This document shows, piece after piece, positions 6,601-46,700 of a stretch of 64,000 nt of DNA. Position 1 is the stretch's first letter; each line of letters starts with the position of its first letter. Source of the DNA: Liolophura sinensis (lineage: Eukaryota > Mollusca > Polyplacophora > Chitonida > Chitonidae); contig NC_088304.1 of the NCBI RefSeq assembly GCF_032854445.1, positions 13,587,704 through 13,651,703 of the forward strand, written 5' to 3'. Made by a program: the position numbers and the translations under genes. The notes beneath the pieces were generated by a model. The model saw only the letters and a list, made by a program, of their open reading frames with translations, did no database searches and was not told where the DNA came from.

Positions 6601-6824
6601 CTGTATTGTTTGAGTGCACGTGTGGCCACACTTTTAAAGTGCGATTGACACTGGACTATTCGTGTGTGTTACAGGTAGACATGCATGAGGTTCTGGGACT
6701 TCAGATGCAGAAGAGGATTGAAGAGGACACAGTGCGGGAGAAAGCCGTGGCGGAACTGGAGCTCACCAAACAGGACCCCACCTCCAAACCCAAGAAAAGC
6801 TTCTTCGCATTCAGCCGGCACTGA
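483..6824 (+). CDS. BICDL1: BICD family-like cargo adaptor (BICDL1/BICDR-1 type), 3' seven coding exons
   Basis: Coiled-coil adaptor that links dynein-dynactin to Rab-positive vesicles; it acts in the cytoplasm on microtubules. Seven exons are joined as 483-665, 1525-1665, 2671-2844, 3699-3869, 4814-4946, 5360-5480 and 6675-6824, giving about 357 codons of the C-terminal part. Diagnostic stretches resemble vertebrate BICDL1: an LRKELLEAYRQLQELC segment (exon 3), MDVLSLNSQLMEAIQQKVEL (exon 6), and a start of the last exon (VDMHEVLG) followed by a basic-aromatic tail KKSFFAFSRH before TGA. The residues are heptad-like and charged, as expected for coiled coil. The N-terminal part with the dynein-binding CC1 box is upstream of the window. 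Exon 5 needs one extra base to keep frame. BICDL2 is possible instead, because the vertebrate paralogs may postdate this gene. Confidence 0.92.
1525..1665 (+). CDS. BICDL1: BICDL1-like exon b
   Basis: 47 codons, phase 0 at both ends; acceptor GTTATTCAG, donor GAG|GTTTGT. It encodes an acidic, serine-rich linker (PHALFETDWMNEEEIECDD and onward). It corresponds in place to the weakly conserved acidic segment between coiled coils in vertebrate BICDL1 and is recognised mainly by phase and position. Confidence 0.78.
2671..2844 (+). CDS. BICDL1: BICDL1-like exon c
   Basis: 58 codons, phase 0 at both ends; acceptor CCCTTAATACAG, donor CAA|GTAAGT. The translation begins LRKELLEAYRQLQELCRNLK and ends IRQLREIIQSSFNQ. 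This matches the conserved BICDL1 pattern of LWEAYxQ, a cysteine, and later LKRLIQS. Confidence 0.92.
2957..3292 (+). mobile_element. tRNA-derived SINE, family B
   Basis: GGTAGATCCAGGATCAATCC head, AAAAGAGGAAGTTACTTCCT, ATGGCTCGGGTGGGGCGAC, CTTGCCTTCGGTAAG and tail ATATGACTGAAAAATAGC. In a BICDL1 intron. Confidence 0.85.
3699..3869 (+). CDS. BICDL1: BICDL1-like exon d
   Basis: 57 codons, phase 0; acceptor TTTCTTTGCAG, donor GAT|GTAAGA. It encodes a coiled coil (MKTKMGELQTAYSSSQKEVV and onward, ending LEEFLAD). Directly after the donor a 21-bp motif containing ATTGCATATCCTTTGTGTA is present three times (about 3878-3940). Confidence 0.88.
4180..4322 (+). mobile_element. Degraded SINE, family A
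   Basis: GTCCGGCCGTAGATGGGAAG, GATGGTTGTGGGTTTCCCC, CGTATAAGTGAAATATTCTT and ACACCAATCAGATA. In the intron before BICDL1 exon e. Confidence 0.75.
4814..4946 (+). pseudogene. BICDL1: BICDL1-like exon e, with an apparent 1-base deletion
   Basis: 133 nt from acceptor TTCGTTCACAG to donor ACA|GTGTGT. It encodes LRVHQDSYSSLQAERDRLQD and onward to NQTRAER. Read straight, the frame then reaches TGA at 4940-4942. One base added near 4929-4930 gives DEAMKQ, which joins exon f in phase and matches the conserved RDEA motif of the family. The length (1 mod 3) also conflicts with the phases of both neighbours (2 mod 3 expected). This may be an assembly error or a real frameshift allele; the rest of the gene looks intact. 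Confidence 0.8.
5065..5300 (+). mobile_element. SINE, family A (nearly full)
   Basis: CAATGACCTAGGAGTTTGTC, CACTGTGGGTTCGTCCAGCT, CTCGGTTTCCTCCCACCATA and TTGAGTGCAGCGTAAAACAC. Only 60 bp upstream of BICDL1 exon f. A poorer relative lies at 5672-5808. Confidence 0.8.
5360..5480 (+). CDS. BICDL1: BICDL1-like exon f
   Basis: 121 nt, starting with one base that completes a split codon and ending in phase 0; acceptor TTTTCTTCTCAG, donor GAG|GTAAGC. The translation RNKLEDNLASVKMDVLSLNS, then QLMEAIQQKVELSQKLDQWE, is the best conserved part of this gene against vertebrate BICDL1. Confidence 0.94.
6675..6824 (+). CDS. BICDL1: BICDL1-like terminal coding exon
   Basis: 49 codons plus TGA at 6822-6824; acceptor GTGTGTTACAG. 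It starts VDMHEVLGLQMQKRIEED and ends KPKKSFFAFSRH. The family C-terminus has the same placement of a DMH motif and a short basic-aromatic tail. The last bases of this exon are the first unit of an 86-bp tandem array in the 3' UTR. Confidence 0.92.
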   Translation, partial: VDMHEVLGLQMQKRIEEDTVREKAVAELELTKQDPTSKPKKSFFAFSRH

Positions 6825-7151
6825 CCCTAGTTTGTGCCAATCCTACTGGCAAAGAGACCTTAGGTTCTCTAATCCAAGAATTGTTTCTCTTCCAGTTCAG
6901 TTGGCACTGACCCTAGTTCAAGCTGGTACCAAAAGCATTGAGACATCACATGCTCTAATCCATGAAGTATTTCTCTTTGAGTTCAGTTAGCACTGACCAA
7001 AGTTCAAATTGGCACCACTGGCAAAGAAACATTAAGTGCTCTAAACCAAGAAGTGTTTCTCTTCCAGTTCAGTTGGCAATGGGCTCAGATTGCACTGGTC
7101 CTGGTGGCTGGAAAATTTTACTTCCAAACTGAAGAAAAGTTTTTTTATTCA
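6784..7151. repeat. 86-bp tandem array that starts inside the BICDL1 stop-codon region
   Basis: TTCAGYYRGCACTGACC recurs at 6810 (coding end), 6896 and 6982, and in changed form at 7068, exactly 86 bp apart. The final unit (about 7120-7150) again resembles the coding tail: its translation TSKLKKSFF parallels TSKPKKSFF of the real C-terminus. The array therefore grew from the end of the coding sequence into the 3' UTR. Confidence 0.85.
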
Positions 7152-7792
7152 GTGTAACAGCATTAATCCGTTCCCGTCATCAAGCTTGCAGGAGACTCTG
7201 CTCTGTAACACTCTGATGGTTGCCGTTGACAACTGGAGATGCTCTTGGTGTTGGATCATGGAACACCAGATCTGAAGGTTTTAGAAAAAAAACAAAAATT
7301 AGCTTTTCATCCCTGTGGTCTTCTTGTAATCTTGATCCTCAACGGTCTTTCTATTTACGAGGCTTGTGTAATCAGGACATTTTGCATTAACTGTTTCATT
7401 TTGATCATTAATAAGTTGTTCATAATTCTTGTTGCAAAATGTTCTACTGACCTTTGAAAGGTTGATCTGAGGATTTGTGGCAGGTAGGATAATATCCGAC
7501 TGGAAATGTGTAAGTTTCTACACCAAAAAATAATATTTTATGACATTTTTTCTTTGCCTTTAAAAAGGCAATCCTTGGAAAAAGAAAATTTGGTTATTTG
7601 TGCTACTTGAGCTAGGCCTGGTCTCCTCCCCTATTTCAAAACACCCTGAAAATTTATACCTATGAAATTGTATAGGTATACTATATACAGTTTATTGTAT
7701 GATGCCAGAAAAGTGTTTTCCACCAATGGAACCACCAGAGACTTTGTTTTTTTTTTACATTATTTCAGTTTCAATTAAATTTGATTGCGATG

Positions 7793-7798
7793 AATAAA
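7793..7798 (+). promoter_or_regulatory. Candidate poly(A) signal for BICDL1
   Basis: AATAAA about 970 bp after the stop codon, in AT-rich sequence. Other signals exist downstream, so the true 3' end is not determined. Confidence 0.3.
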
Positions 7799-10530
7799 TA
7801 GATCTGTTATGTAAATTTGTTAATTGTACGTTATTGATGAGGTAGTAAGTTGCATTGACGAAACTGCTGGAGACCCCAAAGGTACTGTCTCTTGTTGATA
7901 TACATGATGTGAATGAAAAAAAAAACATCAAAAAACAAACAAAATTTAAAGTAGAAATACTTGAGAAAAGCTCTTTATAAGTTGTTTGTTATTCTCAGCT
8001 GGTCGGTATTTTTTGTCTTGTCTCCCAAGGATCTCAACTCTTGCTTTAAGAAACCTATTCTGTTGTAACATGTTATTGAGAGTGCATTATTGCATATATT
8101 ATTTGCATGCATCGTTGTATATATATTGCTTGTATGCTTTCATGCATGGGTCATTTTTTAAAAAAAAATGCTGAGTCATGCCCTAATTAATCTTCAACAA
8201 AAAGTCTGTGAAACCACATCTAGAAGTGCGCTACTCTCAAAACAGAATTGGAAACTGGCAGTAAAAACTTGTGCGGTTAAGTTTGATGTACATACAATCT
8301 ACATGTGGCACAAAACCTTTTTGTTGGGGGGGGGGATTTAATTGATTGCCGATTTCTGTCTCCATGGTCAACAACTTTCACTTGTACAGCGGTAGTCAGC
8401 TTTATGAGTTGAGAATACTAAAGTGCCCAGGGTAAACCACTGGCCATTGGCAAGATCCTGATGAACTTTCTCAGGTGTTCATCTGATGTATGACAAGTGC
8501 TCTTTGAGTACATTTCACGGAAATACCATGAATGCAGGATAATCTATAGATTACCTGTGCAAGGTTCAGTCGTAATCCACCCCTTGTGTTCCCTAGCTAT
8601 TGAAAGGCAAGGACACTTACAGTGGGGCGGGCCATGGTCAGCTGCCCTGCACTGTTTTCTCTTAAAAAGACATAAAAAATATAAACTGATGCACCATGGG
8701 AAATTGTGTAATTCATTATCCAGTCTTTTCAGAATTCTGAAATGCCATGAAATATTAGTGGCCATTAATAATTATATATGGCCATTAATACTTATATATG
8801 GCCATTAATATGTGACACCAGTGGTTTCTGACTTTCCCCAATTGTCTTGTTGCAGACATTACCGAGAGCTGCGCCCTTCTGGTAAATGGACTTCTGATGT
8901 AAAACAAATATGTGCATCATAATTATAGCAATTTCCTAAAATACACGCTTCTAGTCGTAGTTTGATTTTTTTTTTTTCGCCTCTGTTGTTTCTTTTTTCT
9001 CATGGCCTTTGTTATGACTTTTTTTTATATTTGAGTTTTTCTTTTTTTAAATGCACTATAGCTCTACTTATGTCAGTAGTCATGGTTAAAACAAACCAGT
9101 GGGCCGTTCTACAAAGCGTGCAAAACTGTTATAGTAATACACTTTATACACTTGCCCAAATTTACTTATGCTTTTAGAATGAACCTCTGGATCTGTCACT
9201 TGGGCATTCTAGTTTCTGATAATTTGAATATGGGTAATATACATGGACATGTAGTTCCTCAATTCTGCATATTTCTATAATTTTAAATAATTGGTGTTAC
9301 AGAAAACACTGTAAATGATTTTTTTTTTTTGAAAAATCTATGTCTTTTAACATCTCATTTTATAAGTTATTGATATTTTTGTTTTTCCTGGACTCCCTCA
9401 TACTAGCCAGTCAGAGACAGTTTTTCATCCCTTTAACATAGATTATATAGACTAGGCAATCTATAAATGTCTTCTTTTTTTTTTTTTTTGTTTAAATTTT
9501 ATGGACATTTAGTTTCCCTTTTTGATTCTTTGTGTTAAGGAGTGCCATTTGTTTTACCGTGCTATGAGCAGTGCTGAAGGCTAAAACATTGATCTTTATG
9601 AACTCCATTTTGTTTTTATTTTCTGTTGCTATGTTACAACACATTTATTGTATTTTCCAGTGATCAACTGGATGTGTATGTGGGCAGAATTCTTTACATT
9701 TCACGCGTTGATTCATGACTTCGTAGTCTAGCTTTTTGGTTATAGGTCACAAAATCAAAAACATAGCAAGGAAAAGTCTGGGTATTTGTATGCTAAAGAA
9801 GTTTTGTGCAATGCTGTATACAACTGTTTACATTTATGTGTTTGGCATTTTGGCATGAAGTACTCATTTTACTGCCATCTACTCTGCGGCACGAGAGAAA
9901 CTCCCATGTCACCAAACCCACACACAGCGGTCGTGGACTATACATTCTATGGTCAGCCTGAACGTGGATGTCCTGGCGACAGTATCAGGAATATTATGGA
10001 ATATTTCCGCCTACAAGATAGTATTGCCACGAATAACCAGTGATAAACGTCGTCCGTCGCTATGATACCCTCAGTTCAGGCTGATTCGATTGTAATTTCT
10101 GCGAAAACGTGTGTCTTCATCATGTGTTATCAAACCAACTCATCCTTCGATGACTATGTAGAAAAAGGTTTAGGAGAGGAACGCCCAAGGGATGAACTTT
10201 GAAGAGAGTTTGTTGTCATACCGGCAGTTGTGGATCTATTATTAGTTTATTGGTGACTAGAACATTAGAAGCTTCACAGTGAAATCACCATGGGCTAAAT
10301 ATTTATACACTAGTATCAACTTTAGCCTTCTCCCACGATTGAGATTTTTTTTATTATGTTTTGTTTTTAAATGTGGGTTTTCCCCCGAAGCTATTTTTGT
10401 ATATCTTTGACTAAAAAAAATCCAGGAGATGTTTTCTCCAACAAGCCATTGTTCGAATTCCATAGCAGAATACTGATCAGGAGGAAATTCCAAAAGGATG
10501 TGCATAAAATTTACACCAGATCTCGGTCCA

Positions 10531-10838
10531 GTTCGAGGATCACCTCTTGGTACAACTCCTGGTACAACTCCAGGTACAACTCTTAGTACAACTCTTGGTA
10601 CAACTCCTGGCTATGGGGCAATTCGAGGATCACCTCTTCGTACAACTCCTGGCTATGGGGCAATTCGAGGATCACCTCTTGGTACAACTCCTGGCTATGG
10701 GGCAATTCGAGGATCACCTCTTGGTACAACTCCTGGCTATGGGGCAATTCGAGGATCACCTCTTGGTACAACTCCTGGCTATGGGGCAATTCGAGGATCA
10801 CCTCTTGGTACAACTCCTGGCTATGGGGCAATTTCCAT
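10531..10838. repeat. 42-bp minisatellite encoding an open 14-residue repeat
   Basis: About six units of 42 bp containing CCTGGCTATGGGGCAATTCG, preceded by four or five copies of a 12-bp subunit (GGTACAACTCCT). Because 42 is divisible by 3, several frames stay open; the frame from ATG 10498 reads GTTPGYGAIRGSPL repeatedly to a stop at 10857. The array lies outside any recognised gene. Confidence 0.85.
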
Positions 10839-11740: not shown

Positions 11741-11860
11741 CATGCACGTGACTTTGTTGTTAGGCGCACATGGCGTTAACGGATAGGATCACGTACTGAC
11801 GCCTGCGTGGTCTACTGATGTCGTGTACGATAAAACATTCGAGCTAGTCTCGCGTGAAAG
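11741..11860 (+). promoter_or_regulatory. CpG-richer candidate promoter/5' UTR
   Basis: Local rise in CpG (GCGTTAACG, GACGCCTGCG, TCGCGTG) with an E-box, GCACGTGAC, at about 11744. It ends at an ATG (11861) followed by a good donor. It could be the promoter of a short unidentified gene or an upstream promoter of RAD9. Confidence 0.3.
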
Positions 11861-11872
11861 ATGGCTCGGAAG
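11861..11872 (+). CDS. Putative first coding exon of an unidentified gene (M-A-R-K)
   Basis: ATGGCTCGGAAG|GTAAGA: a start codon in reasonable context (AAAGATGG) and a strong 5' splice site in phase 0, just after a CpG-richer stretch. A phase-0 acceptor with an open exon occurs at 13976. No family recognised. It may instead be an untranslated or upstream exon of RAD9. Confidence 0.25.
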
Positions 11873-15925: not shown

Positions 15926-18900
15926 GTTGGTTTTCTTGAGGCAGTTGGTGTTGGTTACCGGACGATTGGTGTTTCGACACATTAACAACAACAACAACAA
16001 ACTTCAGCTGGCACCGCAGATATGTTGAACTTCCACTGATAGTTGTTAACAATCGGGTGACGTCTGTGTTTGTCGTTGACCCACTTCTCATATGTTCCTT
16101 ATGAAAAGCAGATTCTTCAGTGAATCTACCACGTGACAGCACCGGATTCAGAAATTAGACCGAGATTACCCTGACGTTTGGTTTGGCAAAATTTTGCTCA
16201 CTCATGGATGGCCCCAAACCAACATCAGAGCGCGTTCCATTTAGAAACCTGATGCAGTACGTTGTCGTGGCAGTGTATCACTGCGTTTGAGACCAAAATT
16301 ATCTATCAAATACGTCTCCACAGCCTTAAGGTTGCAGACACTTATGTTCCTTATCTTTTCGTCTGTCAATTTATCGATCTGTTATTTCACAGGCCGCATG
16401 GGTTCGAGATTCCTTGGTAATTCACAAAGCGAATGGCTGTACTTACAGCCTCGACATATTTCACAAAGGCATGTAACTGCATCAGGTTTTTAAATGGACT
16501 ACCGTTTGACAGAGGTTTGGGGCCATTCTGGGCCAAACAAAATTTTGCCAAACCCATGTTAGATTAATTTAGACTATGCAGAAACCAGTGTTGCCAGTTT
16601 TACTCTCAATCCTCATTTCAAATATGATAATCAGCGGTGAATGGACATGCCTCTGGTAAAGCTGGGTTTATTGCCTCGTATTGAACATTATTCTATCCCA
16701 TAATACCACCATCTTTATGTTACAGTTTTGTCAGGTCTGTAGAAGGCAATGGTAGTTCGTAGTTTATTAGTAGTTTGTTGAAATAGGCAAGTGACACTTA
16801 ATCGACTAATAACCTTGGAAAATACCCCCACCTTCCCCACTGTAGTCCAAACAACAAAGCAGAGAATCATATGCTTTTCACATGTCATATGAGAGATTTT
16901 GAAATGAGTGGTTCTAAGTATGAAGCAAGTGGTTGAGTGCAATTGATGTTTTGGCATTTTATGGTGTCTCTGTGAAATTAAGGACTGTCAGAATTTTAAA
17001 GCATAGAGTCCATCCAGATGATGTAACATTTTTCAAATCCCAGTTCCTTGAAGTCTTTAAAAGATTGTGTTTTCTTTCCTTTTTTAGTGTTTGGTCGGGC
17101 AATTCATTCCCTGTCAAAAATTGGAGAGGAATTGTATGTGGAACCACTTGAACATGGGGTAAGATGAACACCCACAGCAACACGAGCATAGCACAATGAA
17201 CACAAAACAGTGATATGGTTGCAATGATCATAGAGGTTTACGTGAACATGGAGTAAGATGAACACCCACAGCAACACGGACACAGCACAATGAACACAAA
17301 ACAGTGATATGGTTACAATGATCATAGAGGTTTACATGAACATGGGGTAAGATGAACATCCACAGCAACACAAACACAGCACAATGGACACAAAACAGTG
17401 ATAGGGTTACAATGATCATAGAGGCTTTACATGAACATGGAGTAAGATGAACACCCACAGCAACACGAACACAGCACAATGAACACAAAACAGTGATATG
17501 GTTACAATGATCATAGAGGTTTACATGAACATGGGGTAAGATGAACACCCACACCAATACGAACACTGCGCAATAAACACAAAAAAGTGATAGGGTTACA
17601 ATGATCATAGAGGTTTACATGAACATGGGGTAAGATGAACACCAACAGCAACACAGACACAGTGCACCGTGGGCACAAAACAGTGACATGGTTGCAGTGA
17701 TCAATCATAGAGGTTTAGATGAACATGGGGTAAGTTAAACATCCACAACAACACAGAAACAGTGCACCATGGGCACAAAATAGTGATATGGTTGCAGTGA
17801 TCAGTCATAGAGGTTTTACATGAACATGGGGTAAGATGAACACCCACAGCAACACAAACACAGCACAATGAACACAAAACAGTGATATGGTTACAATGAT
17901 CATAGAGGTTTACATGAACATGGGGTAAGTTGAACACCCACACCAATACGAACACTGCGCAATAAACACAAAAAAGTGATAGGGTTACAATGATCATAGA
18001 GGTTTACATAAACATGGGGTAAGATGAACACCCACAGCAACACAGACACAGTGCACCGTGCGCACAAAACAGTGACATGGTTGCAGTGATCAGTCATAGA
18101 GGTTTAGATGAACATGGGGTAAGATGAACACCCACAGCAACACAGTGTACCGTGAGGACAAAATAGTGACATGGTTGCAGTGATCAATCACAGAGGTTTA
18201 GATGAACATGGGGTAAGTTAAACACCAACAGCAACACAGACACAGTGCACCGTGGGCACAAAACAGTGACATGGTTGCAGTGATCAATCATAGAGGTTTA
18301 GATGAACATGGGGTAAGTTAAACATCCACAACAACACAGAAACAGTGCACCATGGGCACAAAATAGTGATATGGTTGCAGTGATCAGTCATAGAGGTTTA
18401 CATGAACATGGGGTAAGATGAACACCCACAGCAACACAGACACAGTGCACCATGGGCACAAAATAGTGATATGGTTGCAGTGATCAATCATAGAGGTTTT
18501 ACATGAACATGGGGTAAGTTGAACACCCACAGCAACACAGACACAGTGCACCATGGGCACAAAATAGTGACATGGTTGCAGTGATCAGTCATAGAGGTTT
18601 ACATGAACATGGGGTAAGATGAACACCCACAGCAACACAGACACAGTGCACCACGGGCACAAAATAGTGATATGGTTGCAGTGATCAGTCATAGAGGTTT
18701 ACATGAACATGGGGTAAGTTAAACACCCACAGCAACACAGACACAGTGCACCGTGGGCACAAAACAGTGACATGGTTGCAGTGATCAATCATAGAGGTTT
18801 AGATGAACATGGGGTAAGTTAAACATCCACAACAACACATACACAGTGCACCATGGGCACAAAATAGTGACATGGTTGCAGTGATCAATCATAGAGGTTT

Positions 18901-21900
18901 TACATGAACATGGGGTAAGTTGAACATCCACAACAACACAGACACAGTGCACCGTGGGCACAAAATAGTGACATGGTTGCAGTGATCAGTCATAGAGGTT
19001 TACATGAACATGGGGTAAGATGAACACCCACAGCAACACAGACACAGTGCACGATGGGCACAAAATATGATATGGTTGCAGTGATCAATCATAGAGGTTT
19101 TACATGAACATGGGGTAAGTTGAACACCCACAGCAACACAGACACAGTGCACCATGGGCACAAAATAGTGACATGGTTGCAGTGATCAGTCACAGAGGTT
19201 TACATGAACATGGGGTAAGATGAACATCCACAGCAACACGAACACAGCACAATGGACACAAAACAGTGATATGGTTACAATGATCATAGAGGTTTACATG
19301 AACATGGGGTAAGTTGAACACCCACAGCAACACAGACACAGTGCACCATGGGCACAAAATAGTGATATGGTTGCAGTGATCAGTCATAGAGGTTTACAGG
19401 AACATGGGGTAAGATGAACACCCACAGCAACACAGACACAGTGCACCATGGGCACAAAATAGTGATATGGTTGCAGTGATCAGTCATAGAGGTTTACGTG
19501 AACATGGGGTAAGATGAACACCCACAGCAACACAGACACAGTGCACCATGGGCACAAAATAGTGACATGGTTGCAGTGATCAATCACAGAGGTTTACATG
19601 AACATGGGGTAAGATGAACATCCACAGCAACATGAACACCTAGCAATTATGGAAACAGGGATACAAGTCCAGGCTATACCTTGCCTGAGCTGAATTTTAT
19701 GTATAGTACAAGATTTAACCTAGGAAACCCTATCTACGCTTTCAACCAATGAGCAGTGACTCTGTATCCCTTTAATGTTTACAGAAGTTTACACAAAACT
19801 TGGGGTAAGATGAACACCTGCAGGAACATGAACTCAGTATAGGTAACATAAACTGCAGCCTGTCTGCTCCCTGCGCTCCGCTCCATTGGCTTCCATTACT
19901 ACATTTGGTCAAAGGAGGTGCACTCCCTACCTTTTTTGCACTCCCAGTTTATCAATTCTTTGCTAACACTATACTTGAACATGGGGTGAAAGGAACAGGG
20001 TTCATTTTCACCTAGGATAAGAGGAATGCCTACCTCTGCCGAACCATGAGGTTAACAGGAACATTCAGTATAAGGTAATGCCAGTCTGAACCAGGAGCCA
20101 TATGAGCATAGAATGAACGAATGGTTACATGGCTTACAACCACTTCAGATGAACATTGACTTAGACATCACATGAAGTGAAGATAGTTTGTATGAGTGCC
20201 CTTATGTTGTGGAAAAGTCTGAAAAACTGACATTGACATAAAGCTGTTGTCATGTGGCATTGACTTAACACAAATATTTCAATGCAAACTGATATACATT
20301 CACTACCCATATATACCGTATTTCACCTAAGTTTAGAATTTTTCAAGTGACACATTTTGCTGGTTTCTGAATAATTTGTCTACCTTGTAGTGTCACTTAA
20401 GAGGGTTTTTCTTGGTGAAGTTTGAATAATCTCTTATCTGAAAAACTTAAATGTTGACATTAAAAGTATCATTTTAAGACCTTCATGTAATTCTGAAAGT
20501 ACATTTTTCAGACGAAACTTTGCGTGAAATACAGTATTTATTTGCCATAATTAATTGTAGCCTTTGACATTCTGTTTTGGTTTTTGGGCATCAATGAGTG
20601 CGCCAAAACCATTGTTCGAGTGCCGGTATCTAAACAGTACTTACGACTGCCAATCAAATAGAACCTGTCAATCAATCAACACTCTGTTTTGCTTTCAGCT
20701 GACTCTGAGAACTGTTAACTCCTCAAGATCTGCGTATGCCTGCTTCGTTTTCGCTCCAGACTTCTTCCAGCATTATGATGAAGGATCGGGGCAGATTAAC
20801 TCTTCAGATTCAGAAGACACCATCAAGTGTAAAATTACAATTAAGGTGGCTGGATCTTAAAACTACATGTATATTATATTGACACATGAAAGAAAATAGT
20901 TAGAGCGTCTGCCTCAAACTTGAGAGACACGGGATAAAGCCTGGGTCAAAACCAGGGTTGGATCATACCAAAGAGTTTCAAAAATGGTACTTGTTGCTAC
21001 CTCGCTTGGCGTCAGCACTGAGAGGTTAGAGCAAGGAAACAAGACAGGTTGGCCCAGTGTCAGTGTAATGGCACTGGTAGGGTGTCATATCTGGTGTCTT
21101 CGGCATGAACTTTAGTTGTGGCAACATTTTGGCAGCATGAACTCCCTGTGCCACAAGAAAACACAGTATATGTACACGCACCTAATGATTCCCCGTCTTC
21201 ATGTGAATGAAAAATTGTTAAGTACGACAAAAATACCTAAGCATTGCTTCATTTTGACAGCTACTAGCAGGAAACAAGATTAAATCTTCTTTCCTCATGG
21301 GTTTCCCCCCAGAGCTCTTCCTGGTTTCCACTCACTATGATGGCATATACTTCATAACAGTGTTTTCTTTGCCTTTATGTATTCTCCCAGTACTTGATTT
21401 CTTCTGTATTTATATTTACCTGTTGTTATTTATTTATTATTTATTTGATTGGTGTTTTACGCCATACTCAAGAATATTTCACTTATACGACGGCAGCCAG
21501 CATTATGGTGGGTGGAAATCGGGGCGCAGCCCAGGGGAAACCCACGACCATCTGCAGGTTGCTGGAAGACCTTCGCACGTACGGCCGGAGAGGAAGCCAA
21601 CATGAGCTGGACTTGAACTCACAGTGACCCCATTGGTGAGAGGCTCCTGGGTCATTATGCTGCGCTAGCGCGCTAACCGACTGAGCCATGGAGGCCCCAT
21701 ATACCTATTGACAAAGGCCACTTTATTTTTGTCCATTCCAGTCCTGCATGACAGTGTTCAAGTCTCTGTCCACAATTGAGAAGACCGTGGAAAGATGCAA
21801 GATTACCATGGACATGAAGGATTGTAAACTAACCTTCCAGCTACACTGTAAACATGGTGAGAATAATCGCCGTAATTTTTAGTTCTTTGAATGAATGATT

Positions 21901-24900
21901 GAATGAATGAAACCTTTATATAAAGAGGGTAACTGTTAAATTGAACAAATTGCTCTGTCCAGGGGCCTTCTATAATAATACTTGAACAAACAAAATCTAT
22001 ATACACAATTCCATTTTTGTAAACATGAAAATAGCCAGTAATACATCACTATATACATATATATACATATACGAGTTGAAATCATAAATAAAAAATAGAC
22101 ATGTTCCAACTGGTTGACATAAATTTTTAAGAATTGTGACAAAAGGGTGCTGATTTGATATGAATATAATTTACCCTTTTAATTTGTCAAGTACAATTTA
22201 CTGGTTCAAACCTGTAATGTGTTGCTTGGCCCAGTACACAGTTCGCAAATTACATTGAAATTACGGATTCCACAGAGCAACATCCAAATGAAATATGATG
22301 TAGCACAGTTGGACTACTTGCTTGTCTTTTAACGTTGCAATTTTTGGGTAAGGTGCGTAAAATGTGTATTAATAGTTCAGTTTTTGGGTTTGTTGGTGTG
22401 TTATAGGTATAGTGAAGACTCATAACCTGGCATTTATAGAGTGTGAGACGCTTCAGGCTGTGTTTTCTAAGGACACAAGCCCTAATGTGCTGAAAGCACA
22501 TGCCAGGTAAGAAATCTTACCTTAAAAGGAAACATTTAGTGGAAGGCACATGTTCTCTAAGGACACCAGCCCTAATGTGCTAAGGGCACATGCCAGGTAA
22601 GAAATCTTACCTTAAGAGGAAACATTTAGTGGAAGGCACATGTTCTCTAAGGCCACCAGCCCTAATGTGTTGACTGTGCATGCCAGGTAAGAAATCTTAC
22701 CTTAAAAGGAAACATTTAGTGAAAGGCACATGTTCTCTAAGGACACCAGCCCTAATGTGCTAAGGGCACATGCCAGGTAAGAAATCTTACCTTCAGGGGA
22801 AGCATTTTAGTGGAAGGCACATGTTCTCGAAGGCCACCAGCCCTAATGTGCTAAGGGCACATGCCAGGTAAGAAATCTTACCTTAAGAGGAAACATTTAG
22901 TGGAAGGCACATGTTCTCTAAGGATACCAGCCCTAATGTGCTAAGGGCACATGCCAGGTAAGAAATCTTACCTTAAGAGGAAACATTTAGTGGAAGGCAC
23001 ATGTTCTCTAAGGACACCAGCCCTAATGTGCTAAGGGCACATGCCAGGTAAGAAATCTTACCTTCAGGGGAAGCATTTTAGTGGAAGGCACATGTTCTCT
23101 AAGGCCACCAGCCCTAATGCGTTGACTGCGCATGCCAGGTAAGAAATCTTACCTTAAGAGGAAACATTTAGTGAAAGGCACATGTTCTCTAAGGCCACCA
23201 GCCCTAATGTGCTAAGGGCACATGCCAGTTAAGAAATCTTACCTTCAGGGAAAGCCATTTAGTGGGAGGCACATGTTCTCTAAGGCCACCAGCCCTAATG
23301 TGTTGACTGTGCATGCCAGGTAAGAAATCTTACCTTAAGAGGAAACATTTAGTGGAAGGCACATGTTCTCTAAGGACACCAGCCCTAATGTGCTAAGGGC
23401 ACATGCCAGTTAAGAAATCTTACCTTCAGGGAAAGCCATTTAGTGGAAGGCACATGTTCTCTAAGGCAACCAGCCCTAATGTGTTGACTGTGCATGCCAG
23501 GTAAGAAATCTTACCTTAAGAGGAAACATTTAGTGGAAGGCACATGTTCTCTAAGGACACAAGCCCTAATGTGCTGAAAGCACATGCCAGCTAAGAAATC
23601 TTACCTGAAGAGGAAACATTTAGTGGAAGGCACATGTTCTCTAAGGACACCAGCCCTAATGTGCTAAGGGCACATGCCAGGTGAGAAATCTTACTTTCAG
23701 AAGAAGCATTTAGTGGAAGGCACATGTTCTCTAAGGACACCAGCCCTAATGTGCTAAGGGCACATGCCAGGTAAGAAATCTTACCTTAAGAGGAAACATT
23801 TAGTGGAAGGCACATGTTAACAAGTCAGTAGGAGAGTATGTCTTAAATATGTCCATCGATTTGTTTGAAACAGTTTTGTCTCACTCAGCTTCTCCTATAA
23901 AAGTACTGAACCAGTTTCCATTTTTCCTCTGTGTCTTTATTTTTATTTCAGATTAATGGCAGATGTGGTGGGAAATTTCCAGACCAGCCAAGAGGAGGTA
24001 ACTCTGATTGTCAACTCGGAGAGGATCTCTTTCAAGAACTATGTGGAGGATGAGCCAGGTAAAAATTGAAGTCAAAGTCTTAATTGTAAAATAGTTTATG
24101 TTTTGTAAAAAGAAAATTCAAAACAAAAAGAGAGAAAAGAGGTATTTTCAGACACAAAAACGAAACAAGATAAAATCATTTATGATTAAAGAACTCCTGT
24201 AAAGAGACCACAAACTAAGTTTACTTTCAGAAAATACCAACTTCGATATATTGACAAGTTTTGTTTTTACAGAGTAATTAATCTCTTTAACAGTTTCAAT
24301 TTGGCCAAAATTACTAAAAGCTAAAAGAGAAGGCAATGTTAGAGCAGATGTATATATACATCAGTAAAATGTACCACATTTAGTTTAAAAAGCTTACTTT
24401 TATTTTTGTGATGTTGCATAACTGAGATATGTTATATGTAAGTTAAATGTTAAATGTTAAGGTAAATGTAAGCAGAATTGAGCACATTGAGAAAATCAAA
24501 ACGACTACCCAGGTTATTAGCTGTAACCAGTTTCTGTAGCCTGGGCACAAAGCTTACGTCACTCGTACCCTACCCACATATTGCTAAAAGGGAAAACATA
24601 GTTTTGATTCATGTTTTCTGACACAACATCGTGTTTCTTGTAAGCCGTGTAAGAATTCCGTGTGAAGAGTTGTTTTAAAGAGTTACCAAGTGCATCAGAA
24701 ACAACTGGTGTTGCCTTTTCCTCACCTCTTTAAAAATAATTAAGCCTATATTGTTTGTTTTCTTGTCTTTTAATGCATGGCGCGGAAATTAGTGAAAATT
24801 GCCCTTTTTTTGGATGTAGAAGGCCACTGCAGTCCCTGCAAAAGATGATTTACTTTGTGACAGTTACTCAGGTTTGAATGGTAACCATTTTCATCAGAGG

Positions 24901-30900: not shown

Positions 30901-31992
30901 GTTCATCAGTAACCAGCCAAGAGTTGATGGTTTATTCCGTGCAGTCACTCTGTCACTCCTAAAACTCACCATCATTGTGTAGTAAGTGAAAAACAGTTTT
31001 GTTTCACCCCCTGAATCGCATGGCCCATAATAGTACTCAATGTGTCTGTTGTAAGGCTGAGCATTGCATCGTGTCACTGTTTGCAAATGTTCCTTGAAGA
31101 CCACTCATCTTACACCTTGTAAACATCTGTATGTCACACTTGGGAAAGTTTGCCAGTAGCTTGCCAAAGGTCGATGGTTCACCCCTGCACTCCAGTTTCT
31201 TCCACCCCCATAATACTGATTACCACTGTATAGGTGAAATCAATGTGGTGGAAATTAGCAATCAGAATAAACTTCCCTTCCACTGTACGCTGGACTACGT
31301 CAGCCACTGGAGAAGAGAAAACCGTTCAGTATCATGTTCTGTCTTCTGCACTTTTAAGTACCTGGGTGCGGTGCCACATGATCATAAATGCTACGTGTGT
31401 ACATGGAGTTTTAGTCTCTGCGTACCTGTCTTTACAGTCTGTGGAAAGTGAAGTGAAGAAACGTGGCCTGGATCAGACTTGTGAGGATGTCGAAGAGGAT
31501 GAGGACCTCGAAGATACAGTGCCAGGCACTCCTCCCAGTAAAAAGGTACTGTATCCTGTACTGCAACACAGGGTAAAGATGATAGTGCCAGGCACTCGTC
31601 TCAGTAAAAAGGTCCTGTATCCTATACTGCAACACAGGGTAAAGATGATAGTGCCAGGCGCTCCTCCCAGTAAAAAGGTACTGTATCCTATACTGCATCG
31701 CTGGGTAAAGATGATAGTGCCACGCACTCCTGCCAGTAAAAAGGTACTGTATCCTATACTTTAACACAGGGTAAAGATGTTAGTGCCTGGCACTCCTTTT
31801 TAATAGTTCATTTACTATATCTTGCAAGTTATGCTCGTAAAATGTTCTTATTGGTGTTTTTTTTTTTTTCTTTCTCATTTTCAGTTCAAGTCGCTGTTTT
31901 TTGGAATGTCTCAGTCATCAACTCAGTCCAGCATATCCCACAAACCAGCTTCTGTCTCCGTATTGGCTGAAGACACTGATGAAGACGACTGA
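15892..31992 (+). CDS. RAD9: RAD9 checkpoint clamp component, complete 13-exon gene
   Basis: Subunit of the RAD9-RAD1-HUS1 (9-1-1) ring, loaded on damaged DNA to activate ATR signalling through TOPBP1; nuclear. The exons total 1386 nt (461 codons plus stop) and every junction keeps phase. The PCNA-like half carries family motifs: MKC start, [75 protein letters not shown], and ANFVLATL. The tail has [16 protein letters not shown], and an acidic terminus [10 protein letters not shown]. Vertebrate RAD9A is about 391 residues, so this protein has a longer disordered tail. Three exons (2, 5, 12) have their 5' splice sites copied in tandem arrays. It is convergent with PPTC7. Whether it is nearer RAD9A or RAD9B was not tested; it probably predates that split. 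Confidence 0.97.
16176..16557. mobile_element. Foldback element with ~45-bp terminal inverted repeats in RAD9 intron 1
   Basis: Left arm GTTTGGCAAAATTTTG and GGCCCCAAACC at 16183-16220; right arm GGTTTGGGGCC and CAAAATTTTGCCAAAC at 16514-16553. The arms pair over about 45 bp with a few mismatches and enclose about 290 bp without a recognised gene. Confidence 0.7.
17088..17158 (+). CDS. RAD9: RAD9 exon 2
   Basis: 71 nt, acceptor TTTCCTTTTTTAG, two bases completing a valine codon, then [23 protein letters not shown] in phase 0. The donor GGG|GTAAGATG is the founder-like copy of the 94-100 bp array that follows at once. Confidence 0.95.
17140..19640. repeat. 94-100 bp tandem array copying the RAD9 exon 2 donor
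   Basis: About 26 units, each with GAACATGGGGTAAGATGAAC or a close variant. Copies begin at 17150 (the real exon end), 17244, 17338, 17433, 17527, 17621, 17721 and so on to 19600. Early units are about 94 bp, later ones about 100 bp. Most carry an intact GG|GTAAG(A/T). Degenerate copies trail to about 19990. Read through, the frame stops at once (GTA AGA TGA), so the units are not coding. Confidence 0.97.
19641..20310. other. RAD9 intron 2, remnant repeats
   Basis: Degenerate single copies of the donor array (TTGGGGTAAGATGAACACC at about 19800; GAACATGGGGTGAAAGG at about 19977) within otherwise unremarkable intron sequence. Confidence 0.5.
20311..20537. mobile_element. MITE-like element, TIR family M1
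   Basis: Ends are inverted: CCGTATTTCACCTAAGTTT at the left and AACTTTGCGTGAAATACAG at the right. Shares internal sequence (CTGAAAGTACATTTT, TTTTTCAAGTGAC) with elements at 25121-25330 and 63480-63712. Confidence 0.65.
20699..20845 (+). CDS. RAD9: RAD9 exon 3
   Basis: 49 codons, phase 0; acceptor TTTTGCTTTCAG, donor [29 protein letters not shown] is nearly invariant in the RAD9 family. Confidence 0.97.
20898..21245 (+). mobile_element. Divergent tRNA-derived SINE, family B relative
   Basis: tRNA-like head (GTTAGAGCGTCTGCCTC) and tail TGAAAAATTGTTAAGTACGAC, as in family B. The middle is strongly diverged. Confidence 0.6.
21423..21702 (-). mobile_element. Full-length tRNA-derived SINE, family A
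   Basis: On the minus strand it runs from a tRNA-like head (box A ATGGCTCAGTCGGTTAGCGC, box B GAGTTCAAGTCC) to the tail TGGCGTAAAACACCAATCAA followed by AAATAAATAAAT. It lies in RAD9 intron 3, 40 bp before exon 4. Confidence 0.85.
21742..21856 (+). CDS. RAD9: RAD9 exon 4
   Basis: 115 nt, phase 0 to 1; acceptor TCCATTCCAG, donor CATG|GTGAGA. It encodes [20 protein letters not shown] and onward to FQLHCKHG, with EKTVE and QLHCK as family anchors. Confidence 0.95.
22407..22506 (+). CDS. RAD9: RAD9 exon 5
   Basis: 100 nt, phase 1 to 2; acceptor GTGTTATAG, donor CCAG|GTAAGA. It encodes [20 protein letters not shown] and onward to VLKAHAR. The last ~47 nt plus the donor form the first unit of a 90-bp array. 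Confidence 0.95.
22455..23820. repeat. 90-bp tandem array copying the RAD9 exon 5 end and donor
   Basis: 15 copies of CATGCCAGGTAAGAAATC-type junctions, at 22501 (real exon), 22591, 22681, 22771, 22862 and so on to 23765, each 90-91 bp apart. Each unit repeats about 47 nt of exon (GCCCTAATGTGC and flanks) and about 43 nt of intron. The junctions at 23223, 23404 and 23585 have lost the GT. Each unit also has an AAACATTTAG acceptor-like site, so a unit could behave as a pseudo-exon. Confidence 0.97.
23952..24058 (+). CDS. RAD9: RAD9 exon 6
   Basis: 107 nt, phase 2 to 1; acceptor TTTTATTTCAG, donor CCAG|GTAAAA. It encodes [20 protein letters not shown] and onward to KNYVEDEP, the second PCNA-like half of the ring domain. 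Confidence 0.93.
24942..25048 (+). CDS. RAD9: RAD9 exon 7
   Basis: 107 nt, phase 1 to 0; acceptor TTAACTTGCAG, donor AGG|GTAAGG. It encodes [20 protein letters not shown] and ends [18 protein letters not shown] is a RAD9 signature. Confidence 0.95.
25121..25330. mobile_element. MITE-like element, TIR family M1
   Basis: Left end CTACTGTGTTTCACCTAAAG and right end TTTTAGGTGAAATACAGTAG are near-perfect inverted repeats. About 210 bp, in RAD9 intron 7, 70 bp after the donor. Confidence 0.8.
25363..25469. repeat. 17-bp perfect inverted repeat around a (TA)n core
   Basis: AATGACCCGTGTGTTAT at 25363-25379 is the exact reverse complement of ATAACACACGGGTCATT at 25453-25469. The loop is AT-rich and contains a second GACCTGTGTGT. 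A strong hairpin or small foldback element. Confidence 0.8.
25994..26058 (+). CDS. RAD9: RAD9 exon 8
   Basis: 65 nt, phase 0 to 2; acceptor CCACTTTCAG, donor GGAA|GTGAGT. It encodes [21 protein letters not shown], matching the FAEsANL region of RAD9. Confidence 0.93.
27100..27228 (+). CDS. RAD9: RAD9 exon 9
   Basis: 129 nt, phase 2 to 2; acceptor ATTTTCCAG, donor CCAG|GTAATG. It encodes [20 protein letters not shown] and onward. FVLATL closes the ring-forming domain; a Ser/Gln-rich tail begins after it. Confidence 0.93.
27323..27666 (+). mobile_element. tRNA-derived SINE, family B (full length)
   Basis: tRNA-like head with box A (TAGCACAGTTGGTAGAGCG) and a box-B-like GGGTCGAGTCATACC. A conserved body follows (GGCTCGGGCGG, CTTGCCTTCGGTAAG), with tail TGACTGAAAAATTGTTGAGC and CTCACTCACTC. 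It carries an open frame shared with two other copies. Confidence 0.85.
28090..28395 (+). mobile_element. SINE-like repeat, family C
   Basis: Body GGGAAAGTTTGTCAGCAATT, GGTCGGTGGTTTAC and tail GGCATTAAACAACACTCAAC. Partial relatives lie at 28500-28615, 30890-31000, 31130-31235 and 47895-48090. Confidence 0.6.
28628..28735 (+). CDS. RAD9: RAD9 exon 10
   Basis: 108 nt, phase 2 to 2; acceptor GTCTCCCCTTAG, donor ACAG|GTAATC. It encodes a disordered Ser/Glu/Pro-rich part of the tail ([20 protein letters not shown] and onward). Recognised by splice sites and phase rather than conservation. Confidence 0.88.
29170..29992. repeat. 37-bp minisatellite with 259-bp higher-order period
   Basis: About 22 units built on CCTTGATGGGTTACCCAGGG and TACACTGGTTTACTCCA, in RAD9 intron 10. 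Rare variants recur 259 bp apart (7 units): GAGTACAGTGG at about 29489 and 29748, and ACACTAGTTAACTCC at about 29605 and 29864. So blocks of seven units were duplicated. Confidence 0.95.
30123..30309 (+). CDS. RAD9: RAD9 exon 11
   Basis: 187 nt, phase 2 to 0; acceptor TGTTTATCACAG, donor CAG|GTAAGT. It encodes [20 protein letters not shown] and onward. The [15 protein letters not shown] stretch parallels the acidic DDID..MAMETT motif of vertebrate RAD9 tails. Confidence 0.92.
30531..30785 (+). mobile_element. tRNA-derived SINE, family A (full length)
   Basis: Head GGCCGAGGGGGTTAGCATGC, body CAGCTCATGCTGGCTTC, tail ATTCTTGAGTATGGCGTAAA and (AAAT)n. In RAD9 intron 11. Confidence 0.85.
30880..31240 (+). 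repeat. Two partial family C repeats in RAD9 intron 11
   Basis: Pieces with GGAAAGTTTGCCAGTAGCTT and CACTGTATAGGTGAAATC (31130-31235), and a more diverged GGAAAGTTCATCAGTAACCA segment (30890-31000). No function seen. Confidence 0.5.
31438..31545 (+). CDS. RAD9: RAD9 exon 12
   Basis: 36 codons, phase 0; acceptor GTCTTTACAG, donor AAG|GTACTG. It encodes [20 protein letters not shown] and ends [11 protein letters not shown], the conserved proline/lysine motif just before FKSLFFG. Its last 27 nt plus the donor seed a 66-bp array. Confidence 0.95.
31519..31800. repeat. 66-bp in-frame tandem array at the RAD9 exon 12 donor
   Basis: GTGCCAGGCACTCCT starts at 31519, 31585, 31651, 31717 and (partial) 31783, exactly 66 bp apart. 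Each of the four full units ends in AGTAAAAAG|GTACTG. Since 66 is 22 codons, the frame stays open through all four units and stops at a TAA near 31762. Confidence 0.97.
31885..31992 (+). CDS. RAD9: RAD9 terminal coding exon 13
   Basis: 35 codons plus TGA at 31990-31992; acceptor TCTCATTTTCAG. It encodes [20 protein letters not shown] and ends [11 protein letters not shown]. In vertebrates the matching tail (AEDSE) holds the CK2-phosphorylated serine that binds TOPBP1; here it is threonine in an acidic context. Confidence 0.96.
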   Translation, partial: FKSLFFGMSQSSTQSSISHKPASVSVLAEDTDEDD

Positions 31993-40763: not shown

Positions 40764-43700
40764 CTGCAAAAAAACACAGAAAAACATTTACAACATAATG
40801 AATTCAGTTAAATTATATGTGTCAAGGAACAAAAGCGACAATGAATTTCTTTTTTTTTTTTTTTTTTGCTCTAGTTGTGAGAACAAAACAAGTGAAGAAC
40901 ATCAGTCTTAGTTTCTGTAGTTCTGAGATAACCTGACCTCGGACTCCTCAACTCCGCAATAACTGGACAGTGCTGTAGTTCTCCACACAGCTCTCTTCTC
41001 GTCAGAGAGACAGAAAAAAATCTCCTGTTTGCTCACTACAAAAAACTACTGGTATCAGGTAGCAACTTACCTTTGATGTCAATGCCTACGTCCACTGCGG
41101 AGAGAGCAAATGGGGACATGTAGTCTGGGTCTAGGGAGAGGGTGTGGGCGTGGTCTGCCATGCCATGCGCCGTCTTCTGAACACTCTCTTCTCTGTGGTC
41201 CTACAGGTGAAGTAACCATAGTAACAGTCAGATACTGTACAGGTATCTAACAGTAAATTTTGTCCATGTCTAATGCACCCATATTGCCTGATTTTGAGAG
41301 TTCTTTTGATCTCAGAAGGTACTTTGAGGTTTGTTTGGGAGGTAGAATGAAAAATATCAGTTTCAGCACCAACAGGAAGATTTTTTTGATCTTTATTTGC
41401 CTCTTTAGTTTTGGATGCAAATTTTTCAAGCAAATGCACTACTTGTTACATTTGTTAGTAACGAGTCTACTTAATTCAAGAAAATCTCTCAGCTTACTGA
41501 TCAATGCAAATATCTTAAAACCTTTCCATATTCAAATAAATTATGGTAAATATGTCTATTAAATACAGAGCTTGTACTTTAGTTCCCAATGAGTGCTCTT
41601 CAGAATTGAAGGTAGAAAGGTGTGGGATAAATTTTATTGAGCCTGTGACAATAGATTTACCTTAAATCTCAAAAGAGCATTAAATTTTAAGCAGGAAACA
41701 GGAGGTCCATAATGAAGAGAAAGGTTCTGTCTTAAAGGAGAAGAAAACCTTAATATCAGACAAATACCATTGAAAAGAGTATGCATTTACTCGCAGGTGC
41801 ATGCCAAAAAAAAAAAGTTGATAAATTATAAATAAAGTCAGCACCAAAATTTGCTGTGGGCAACTCCATTTTGCCTAAGAACTAGTCCTAAAGTCTTCCG
41901 TGTTGGGAAGAGAACTGATGTCTGAAACCACCGACGTGCAGTTTGTACATTTCCGGTAGAATTCTTCCCAGAAGGTAGCAAACAGTACAGTTCGTTTTCC
42001 GCTTGACGATCAGGAAACGGGAATGTTGGACATAGATTCCGAGTTTACACGAACAAGACGGCAGTTTTAACAACTCTCATTGGCTGAGAGGCAACACTCT
42101 CCCAGCATAAATTTCCGGGTGTTAAAGATGGCGGATGTGATGGATTCAGAGATTTATGCCAGCTTTGCCGTTTTCAAGCTCTGCATGTATGGCGAGGAAA
42201 AATCGCAAAATTATGCAGCAGGCACCACCAGATAGGAAAAAATGTGCTCTTTTCAGCCTATAGTGTCATTTTTTAAATTTTTCTTCTCCTTTAAGAATGA
42301 CAATTTACAGACAGGTTCAGAATTTTCACTATACCTCTGGTACACAGAATGCTACTTCATCTTCAGAAATATACTCCACAAGCAATAGTCTTTCAAAACA
42401 AGACGGAAAAGGCCAACCACAGTGGACCCAAACTCGTTAGCGACAAGAAAATGTGATAGACAGGACATGGCCAGATGAAGTTCCTACCTTCAATCTAGCT
42501 ATGTGGCTTAGAATCATATCTTCACTTAAGTTGTCAAACAGTCCATCTGTACCAACAAGGATTATGTCCCCTTCCTTGACACCAAAAGATGTGCTTTCTG
42601 CCATGTCTGGGCTGATAAAAAAAAAAAAAGAACAAAGAAAACATCTCTTATTTATAATCCATAAATGGTAAGACAAAGTCACTGAAATTAATTTTCATGT
42701 ATGATACAAGTTACAAAGTTTTTTTTCTAAGTCTATAATCAGTATTTGGGACTTTAGTACCTTACTACATTACAACAGTAAATGGTTCACTCTCCCTTGA
42801 GTTCTCTCTCTGGATATATCATACTGTATGTATTCAATGTATGTATTAAATGCTGAAAATTGATTCAGACCACTTTGGGCTTTGAACAACAAGCAGGCAG
42901 CAGGCCTGCAGATTTTGCAGATACAATATGACGATATATGTAAATGTACCAAAGCAATGTAATTCCATTTAATTATTTGAGCTACCACTTTCTTGGCAAA
43001 GCACACATGTAAGGCGAATGACACTGAATTCGTAGCACCCCACACTGGAACTCATTATTTCAACTTGAGTTGGAAATTGTCACAAAACATAAGACAATCC
43101 CAAAATCTAGTAAAACTAAAGATATTAAAAAATTAAAATGTTGAAAATGTATCCACTGGCGATTTACATGCTGCCATTTAGTCGAGAAAATGTTCATGTA
43201 CACATTCAAGAAATATGCGAATGTCACTTCTATTATACAGCTATAAATGTGGTCCAATGAAATCAGTAGGATCATACCACATGACCACTCTTTATTATAC
43301 AGCTATAAATCTGCTCCAATGAAATCAGTCAGATCATACCACATGACCATTTTTATTATACAGCCACAAATGTGGTCCAATGAAATCAGTAGGATCACAC
43401 CACATGACCATTCTTTATTATACAGCTATAAATGTGGTCCAATGAAATCAGTAGGATCATACCACATGACCATTCTTTAATATACAGCTATAAATGTGGT
43501 CCAATGAAATCAGTCAGATCATACCACATGACCATTCTTTATTATACAGCTATAAATCTGCTCCAAAGAAATCAGTAAGATCATACCACATGACCATTCT
43601 TTATTATACAGCCATAACTGTGGTCCAATGAAATCAGTCAGATCATACCACATGACCATTCTTTAATATACAGCTATAAATGTGGTCCAATGAAATCAGT

Positions 43701-46700
43701 AGGATCATTCCACATGACCATTCTTTAATATACAGCTATAGATGTGGTCCAATGAAATCAGTCAGATCACACCACATGACCATTCTTTATTATACAGCTA
43801 TAAACGTGGTCCAATGAAATCAGTCATATCATACCGCGTGACAGTCCTGTACTTAAGAGGGATACTGGCTCCCTGAGAGCCGTATTTTTTTCACATTGTA
43901 CAGTAGCAAAGGCAGGTAACTTTATATGCCAAAAGCATTGGGCACGGGGAGGGGGGTGGGCGTGGGGTTGCTCTTGTGTTATTGTTTACTCTCCGTGTTT
44001 CTGTAAATGTTGACAAGGAAGTGTGGATAACATGGACTCGTCCAATACCACTCCATAATGTACACTATGACCAAATACTACGGACCTGTCACTCAGGACT
44101 TGTCCCTCCTGGGTGGGGGGTGCCACTGCTATCTGGAAGGGAGTGTTGAAGTAGTGTTGCTGTTCCTGGGAGCGGTGGATGACCTCTCCGTCACGGATGA
44201 GCAGGAAGCCGCTGTCACCCAGGTTAGCTGTGTACATTGTTCGCTCCTCACGGTGAAGTGCCACGATACAGGCAGTACTGCTTCCTGAAAACACACAGCA
44301 TTTTATACCCAATATTACACAAAATATCACCCATTAGTACTGCTTCCTGAAAACACACAGCATTTTATACCCAATATTACACAAAATATCACCCATTAGT
44401 ACTGCTTCCTGAAAACACACAGCATTTTATACTCAATATTACACAAAATATCACCAGACAGTACTTCTTCCTGAAAACACACAGCATTTTATACTCAATA
44501 TTACACAAAATATCACCAGACAAGCAGTACTACTTCCTGAAAACACACAGCATTTTACACTCAATATTACACAAAATATCACCCAACAGTACTGTTTCCT
44601 GAAAACACACAGCATTTTATACTCAATATTACACAAAATATCACCCATTAGTACTGCTTCCTAAAAAAACACAGCATTTTATACTCAATATTACACAAAA
44701 TATCACCAAACAGTACTGTTTCCTGAAAACACACAGCATTTTATACTCAATATTACACAAAATACCACCAGCTCTAGTGTCACCAAGTACTTGCTCTGAT
44801 TGATCTAGTTATGTACTTAATTGGTGTTCAAGCTGTACTCAAGAATATTTCACCTATAAGACAGCAACCAGCAATATGGTTTGAAGAAACCAGGCAGAGC
44901 CAGGGGGAAATGCACGACCATCCAGCATGAGCCTGAACCCACGGTGACCGCATTGGTGAGAGACTCCAGGGTCATTGCACACCACCCGTTGGCATGGTAA
45001 CCACCACAGCCATGAAGTCCCCTGCTCCAACTGATTTACTTCTTTATTTGATTGGTGTTTCATGCCGTAAGCCACCATGAGTCGGACTTGAACTCACACC
45101 GATGGCACTGTTGAGGTTCATGGGTCACCTGAGGTACCAACCCCCTCGGCCACGGAGGCTCTCATGCTCTGATTGAATAATTTAATGAACATACATTTCA
45201 AATTATTAAAACATATGAGTGGATTTGGTAATCATTATCTGCATGATGCAACTGTTCAAAAGAGGCAGTTATGAAGCGGAAATTTGCTTATTTAAACATA
45301 TGATTATGTTATGATTATGTTTGATTTAGTTTTCACAAAGCCTTGAAAAGTTTTTTGAATCATGACCTGAATGAGGATTGAATCATGACCTGAATCAGGA
45401 CTGAATCATGGCCTGAATCAGGACTGAATCATGACCTGATTCAGGACTGATTCATGACCTGAATCAGGAGTGAATCATGGCCTGAATCAGGAGTGAATCA
45501 GGCTTGAATCACGACCTGAATCAGGATTGATTCATGGCCTGAATCAGGATTGAATCATGACCTGAATCAAGATTGAATCATGGCCTGATTCAGGATTGAA
45601 TCATGGCCTGAATCAGGACTGAATCATGAACTGAATCAGGACTGAATCAGGACTGAATCACGACCTGAATCAGGATTGAATCACGACCTGAATCAGGATT
45701 GAATCATGGACTGAATCAGGATTGAATCATGGCCTGAATCAGGATTGAATCATGACCTGAATCAGGACTGAATCATGACCTGAATCAGGATTGAATCATG
45801 ACTGAATGAGATTGAATCATGGCCTGATTCAGGATTGAATCATGACCTGAATCAGGACTGAATCATGACCTGAATCAGGATTGAATCATGACCTGAATGA
45901 GGATTGAATCATGGCCTGAATCAGGATTGAATCATGACCTGAATGAGGATTGAATCATGGCCTGAATCAGGATTGAATCATGACCTGAATCAGGAGTGAA
46001 TCAGGCTTGAATCACGACCTGAATCAGGCTTGAATCACGACCTGAATCAGGATTGATTCATGACCTGAATCAGGATTGATTCATGACCTGAATCAGGATT
46101 GAATCACGACCTGAATCAGGATTGAATCATGACCTGAATCAGGATTAAATCATGGCCTGAATCAGGATTGAATCATGACCTGAATCAGGATTGAATCATG
46201 GCCTGAATCGCGATCAAGCCTTGATCTGTATCTAGCCTACGAGGCAGATGTTTAAACCTCTTAAAACACCAACATGTTTTCACATTCTCTTCGTTAACAT
46301 TTGCATGTACTGAATGCGTTCACAATCTTTAAATTGTCTCCAGTTGCAACCCGCGGATCCTCCCACCATAATGCTGGACGCCGTTATACAAGTGAAATAT
46401 TGTTGAGTATGGTGTAAAGCACCCATCAAATATACATGTATAAATAAATCAATATGAAAGTCTGATAAACCTCATAAAATTACTTCCACATTTTGTTTCA
46501 CTCATTATCTGTAAATGTATTTACTTTCCAAAAACATTCAATGCAATTGTAAACGTTTAGTGTTTTTGGACACTAAAAACATTTACAGCCAGTCCACACC
46601 AGTAAGCAAGTTTATGGGGTACTGAAGTACTGAAATTTGTTGTTCATATAATAAAACCAAACTGCCATGACACAACACTGAATTACAATTGATGTCAACT

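Follow-up and report, generated by a model that had tools for sequence, protein, structure and literature searches.

Minisatellites across exon borders in the chiton Liolophura sinensis: an excess on splice junctions and the lengthening of existing introns

Introduction

Why should minisatellites lie precisely across the edges of exons, and do they make new introns there? The question is raised by a stretch of 64,000 nucleotides of the chiton Liolophura sinensis (GCF_032854445.1, NC_088304.1:13,587,704-13,651,703; hereafter the window), in which tandem arrays span exon borders of RAD9 and of a second gene. A preliminary description of this DNA, made from the letters alone, proposed that five arrays are built from functional gene borders, that chance would hardly have placed them there, and that they might show the birth of introns in action. 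According to the portions of the assembly paper available to us, the genome (GCA_032854445.1) was assembled from PacBio HiFi reads into 609.5 Mb and 632 scaffolds, with 13 chromosome-length pseudomolecules (PMC11068029); it was first published as Liolophura japonica (PMC11068029), a name later corrected to L. sinensis (PMC12441733). Eight matches to a haemocyanin domain model, of a type characteristic of molluscs, occur together in a single stretch.

Here we describe the arrays of the window and a count of such arrays in an independent sample of exons from the same genome. We think it probable that they are mirages, the name used in amphioxus for minisatellites over exon-intron borders: a segment lying over an exon edge is duplicated in tandem and amplified into the adjoining intron, with an excess on junctions, and introns are lengthened, not created.

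Results

Arrays across exon borders in the window

Tandem Repeats Finder (TRF) lists all five arrays at the sites first proposed, four of them across splice junctions and one over a putative stop codon (Table 1); in all, 12 arrays of the window have a period of at least 25 and a score of at least 100. The exon edge falls inside the terminal array unit at the donors of RAD9 exon 2 (17158/17159), exon 5 (22506/22507) and exon 12 (31545/31546), and also at the acceptor of the PPTC7-like exon on the minus strand (44284), as read in the sequence. The proposal that the functional edge is always the end unit was thus right as a description. It adds no evidence, since a tandem duplication across any exon edge leaves the original edge, and with it the functional copy, on the exon side.

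Table 1. Exons and tandem arrays at gene borders of the window (positions within the window; a slash marks the exon edge)
Feature	Position	Strand	Description	Evidence
86-bp array, 3.2 copies, 71% matches	6802..7078	+	over putative stop 6822-6824 of a coiled-coil gene	TRF; sequence
RAD9 exon 2	17088..17158	+	first array unit begins in its last 10 bases	sequence; RAD9A alignment
100-bp array, 25.3 copies	17149..19632	+	across RAD9 exon 2 donor, GGG/GTAAGATG	TRF; sequence
RAD9 exon 5	22407..22506	+	last 46 bases open the array	sequence; RAD9A alignment
90-bp array, 15 copies	22461..23818	+	across RAD9 exon 5 donor, GCCAG/GTAAG	TRF
RAD9 exon 12	31438..31545	+	ends VPGTPPSKK	sequence; exon 13 junction aligns to RAD9A
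66-bp array, 4.4 copies	31511..31797	+	across RAD9 exon 12 donor	TRF
PPTC7-like exon	44086..44284	-	begins (G)SSTACIVAL	sequence; PP2C matches
62-bp array, 8 copies	44273..44769	-	across PPTC7-like acceptor, TTTTCAG/GAAGCAG	TRF

The joined translation of RAD9 exons 2 to 6 aligns with human RAD9A with no gap at the joins of exons 2 and 3 and of exons 5 and 6, the gaps lying inside exon 3 and exon 6, and the join of exons 12 and 13 aligns with the human protein as well. Because these joins are gap-free, exon-side splicing would give a conserved RAD9 product, and because only that choice yields the conserved protein, splicing probably uses the exon-proximal copy, that is, the first donor or the last acceptor. 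The PPTC7-like chain matches a PP2C structure and the Pfam family PP2C. The name PPTC7 is that of the preliminary description, which we follow. The label BICDL1, given there to the coiled-coil gene, found no confirmation: comparison with Pfam returned no family above its curated cut-off, and the best match in PDB had an E-value of only 0.29. The putative stop of this gene is read from its open frame, and the array over it, with its low percentage of matches, is older-looking than the others.

An excess on the junctions in an independent sample

The sample was drawn from the same genome with the window excluded. It consists of exons from six Pfam families, taken from matches whose open frame does not exceed 150 amino acids, longer frames being omitted by rule; 205 of 208 were used, and the three left aside were one kinase match and two DEAD matches that nearly duplicate a third. 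Exons were chosen before any array search, and each was fetched with 650 bases per side, which gave 176 loci and 283,581 letters with no N. Exon edges were set from the ends of the Pfam matches together with a simple home-made splice score. Arrays were accepted with a period of at least 25 and a TRF score of at least 100, overlapping rows were merged, and an array was called crossing when it reached at least 4 bases over an exon edge; unannotated neighbour exons in the flanks would be tallied as non-crossing. Under the null, the original unit is placed uniformly along the available sequence, with each array's own unit length taken as either the smaller or the larger period.

We found that 13 of 53 sample arrays cross an exon edge, at 8 donors and 5 acceptors, and that 12 of the 205 exons carry a crossing array (about 6%, 95% interval 3-10%). 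Uniform seeding predicts 3.7 crossings with the smaller period (p=4e-5) or 4.6 with the larger (p=5e-4). When the overlap demanded is raised to between 6 and 20 bases, 10-12 crossing arrays are left, with ratios of 2.6-4.1 and p from 8e-5 to 3.4e-3; across ten settings the excess is 2.6-4.1-fold, with p from 3.5e-5 to 3.4e-3. In the strongest arrays, with periods of at least 45 and a score of at least 200, it reaches up to 5-fold (13/33 crossing against 2.9 or 3.8 expected). The suspicion that placement on exon edges goes beyond chance is in this sense borne out, outside the window in which it arose. A minisatellite-rich genome and a window chosen after the fact would make some crossing arrays unsurprising, and the null itself predicts a few; but 13 were observed, and the excess holds across the ten settings, in exons picked before the search; we regard chance as a very improbable explanation. 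One exon of the sample, from a mitochondrial carrier (locus L054), bears one array at its acceptor (56 bp, 12.3 copies) and another at its donor (74 bp, 3.0 copies).

The 40 non-crossing arrays are evenly spread with distance from the exon, numbering 4, 3, 5, 5, 4, 2, 4, 2, 2, 3, 3 and 3 in successive 50-bp bins. The excess is therefore located on the junction itself and not merely close to exons, although the numbers are modest; a general hotspot near exons is unsupported.

Anatomy of the units and evolution of the copies

The position of the junction within the unit is scattered (mean 0.45 of the unit, Kolmogorov-Smirnov test against uniform p=0.40, 17 arrays), which speaks against endpoints of duplication fixed relative to the splice site. 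Unit length is a multiple of 3 in only 2 of these 17 arrays, one of them that of RAD9 exon 12. In the latter the reading frame is open through most array copies (31234-31764), and use of an inner donor would insert repeats of 22 residues. Also, lone look-alikes of the RAD9 exon 2 junction stand in the vicinity of 19800 and 19978, past the end of its array, which suggests that this array was formerly longer.

Non-exon copies of a junction were recognised at 20 or more matching bases out of 28. Of 124 copies so recognised, 104 keep the splice dinucleotide; GT is kept in 25/25 copies at RAD9 exon 2, 11/14 at exon 5 and 3/3 at exon 12, and AG in 7/7 copies of the PPTC7-like array. On the simple splice score, 82 of 122 recognised copies score at least as high as the real site. 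Both figures could be taken to favour selection for the arrays, with spare splice sites or longer introns aiding splicing. We consider such selection improbable, as conservation of the dinucleotides does not exceed that of the remaining unit. Where 3 or more copies were recognised, which holds for 16 arrays, departures from the copy consensus were counted within 10 bases of the junction: they amount to 15/244 in the splice dinucleotide, against 104/2196 elsewhere (57/1220 in bases derived from the exon and 47/976 in those derived from the intron; Fisher p=0.35 and 0.92). Since neither contrast is significant, the array copies look unconstrained, and selection on them as splice sites or as coding sequence is unsupported. 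In a kinase acceptor array of the sample (locus L096, 122-697) the six recognised non-exon copies all have no AG, which the exon copy keeps; this too speaks against selection for the arrays.

On average, the exon copy does not stand further from the array consensus than its neighbours do: near the junction its distance is 0.047, against 0.069 for the other copies (Wilcoxon p=0.18). In 4 of 16 arrays it is further away than they are. At RAD9 exon 5, comparison over the full 90-base unit puts the exon copy 6 bases away from the TRF consensus.

Origin of the arrays

Might the arrays have come first, with exon edges set into them later? This was rejected for RAD9 exons 5 and 12, where the stretch of the unit that lies in the exon codes for residues conserved in human RAD9A, and for the sampled locus L069, where it holds a DEAD-box motif. 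An origin from dispersed repeats was rejected for the arrays of RAD9 exon 5 and L069, which matched only their own loci among the matches listed; the remaining matches of these two queries fell on other query parts, mainly interspersed elements (40 candidates scored for each). Among the same matches there was no second, haplotypic copy of the RAD9 or L069 locus, and haplotypic duplications had been purged from the assembly as published, as stated in the available portions of its description (PMC11068029).

Long arrays are error-prone in assembly in principle, and HiFi coverage here was just 14x (PMC11068029, from the same portions). However, the HiFi reads have a mean length of 8,347 bp (PMC11068029), greater than that of the window arrays, which measure at most about 2.5 kb, and recognised copies are about 5% off their consensus and so are not exact duplicates. 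An assembly artefact is thus scarcely credible as an explanation.

Intron growth in the window

A tandem duplication of exon sequence carrying AGGT can, in the model of Rogers, turn the duplicate into an intron, as the passages of PMC4974935 available to us describe it, and the preliminary description proposed that this process was under way here. The array copies do carry exon-border splice sites, and the amphioxus study, in the part that we could consult, proposes the recruitment of such copies into new introns (PMC3087553). Nevertheless, the next RAD9 exons begin at 20699, 23952 and 31885, beyond the array ends given in Table 1, and the end of the PPTC7-like array lies about 18 kb from the edge of the preceding exon at 62790. 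All four splice arrays of the window, to which this comparison applies (the sampled loci being exons with 650-base flanks), lie at a single end of an intron already present and do not reach the opposite exon, and the RAD9 protein is unaltered across the array-bearing introns. What the window holds is intron growth and not intron birth, as no intron is made wholly of duplicated segment; the proposal of new introns in action does not stand, and we give intron birth by the route of Rogers very little credence as an account of these arrays.

Other repeats of the window

An interspersed repeat of about 275 bp lies in a RAD9 intron (21425-21700), with dozens of listed copies genome-wide at 90-95% identity; it resembles a short interspersed element (SINE). 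Upstream of RAD9, a 42-bp array with 99% matches (10592-10833) has several open frames on both strands.

Discussion

The reading that we hold probable can be set out as a series of steps. A segment that runs over an exon edge, about 50-130 bp long, would duplicate in tandem, and its exon-side copy would stay intact as part of the gene. The other copies would turn into intron, free to multiply and decay, and their splice sites would be tolerated decoys. The least certain step is the last one, by which the excess would come from duplication centred on junctions, for example by the filling in of staggered breaks, and not from better survival.

The threefold excess may mean either that duplication is more frequent on junctions or that arrays anchored there live longer. 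We lean, tentatively, towards the former, since the excess ends abruptly where the exon does. Under the latter, duplications would arise evenly and exon-anchored arrays would be lost more slowly, because a deletion that extends into the exon does harm and the exon's own unit persists as a permanent seed. This agrees with duplication endpoints that lie at no fixed distance from the splice site, and with the absence of an enrichment just outside the exon, by which breakpoints are not simply clustered near exons. On the other hand, arrays adjacent to an exon should share in the protection, yet no such protection is seen (the nearest 50-bp bin holds 4, a small number), and a threefold effect would be hard to reach by survival alone. 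Survival bias as the whole cause consequently seems to us rather unlikely. Junction-centred duplication is itself put forward tentatively, at less than even confidence: in this lineage, tandem duplication may occur preferentially at junctions, by way of a junction-centred process that could be break and fill-in coupled to transcription or splicing, and thousands of exons, a figure extrapolated from the sample, would then have competing sites among which the exon-side copy is chosen.

Several points weigh against interpreting the arrays as mirages with a true junction excess. The sample holds just 13 crossing arrays, and when these are set against the 12 arrays that come within 150 bp of an exon but do not cross its edge, the excess gives only p=0.027. 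Three of the crossings reach no more than 11 bases into the exon (5, 8 and 11), and for the 205 exons, 128 acceptors and 160 donors are well scored, the other edges having been placed by weaker calls or by the end of the match. Unit length is in part confounded with location (median 65 for crossing and 40 for non-crossing arrays, p=0.001), a difficulty eased by a null that takes every unit's own length. The rule for recognising copies under-counts decayed ones; in locus L092, for example, it recognises 4 of about 12. Furthermore, the array of the gene once labelled BICDL1 lies off any splice junction, and the use of the exon-side site is deduced from protein conservation across the RAD9 junctions only.

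The occurrence of mirages in a mollusc, in some 6% of the exons sampled and at roughly three times the number expected on junctions, points to a mutational or survival process that recurs at exon borders. Additionally, every array is a natural competition experiment among splice sites, with as many as 25 near-identical donors in succession, the first of them apparently being the only one used. In the literature searched, whose coverage was partial and does not show absence in print, we found no earlier mollusc mirage and no measured junction enrichment. A term search of the available text of the comparative chiton genome paper (PMC12005716) met neither 'tandem repeat' nor 'minisatellite', and that of a tandem-repeat survey in Daphnia (PMC3152781), likewise limited to the available text, met neither 'exon-intron' nor 'splice'.

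Among known systems, ordinary intronic minisatellites such as the 38-bp array in TERT intron 6 are likewise tandem arrays within introns, whereas each chiton unit contains the junction. Cases of intron birth (ATP2A1, fission yeast, potato RdRp) share with the chiton a tandem duplication that involves splice signals; there, according to the available portions of PMC4974935, the duplicated segment gives a new intron, whereas the four window introns are lengthened at one end. The closest likeness is with the mirages of amphioxus, which the available parts of two reports (PMC3087553, PMC3902484) describe as minisatellites over exon-intron borders in the globin genes BflGb6 and BflGb9 and in Adh3, TnC and PGBD5, with units of about 10 to 160 bp at both 5' and 3' borders, many but not all of them with AG/GT, and with regular splicing reported or suggested to be undisturbed. 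Chiton units also span the exon-intron boundary (4 arrays in the window and 13 in the sample), affect donors as well as acceptors (3 and 1 in the window, 8 and 5 in the sample) and carry AG/GT in many but not all copies (104/124). They differ in belonging to a mollusc and to several conserved gene families, in reaching up to 25 copies, in being known here from DNA alone, and in having been counted in an independent genome sample and set against uniform placement. The structure is thus not new as a kind, amphioxus mirages having preceded it; the chiton arrays belong to a kind known from a few lancelet genes, and what appears to be new, in the literature searched, is its presence in another phylum and a measured excess on the junctions.

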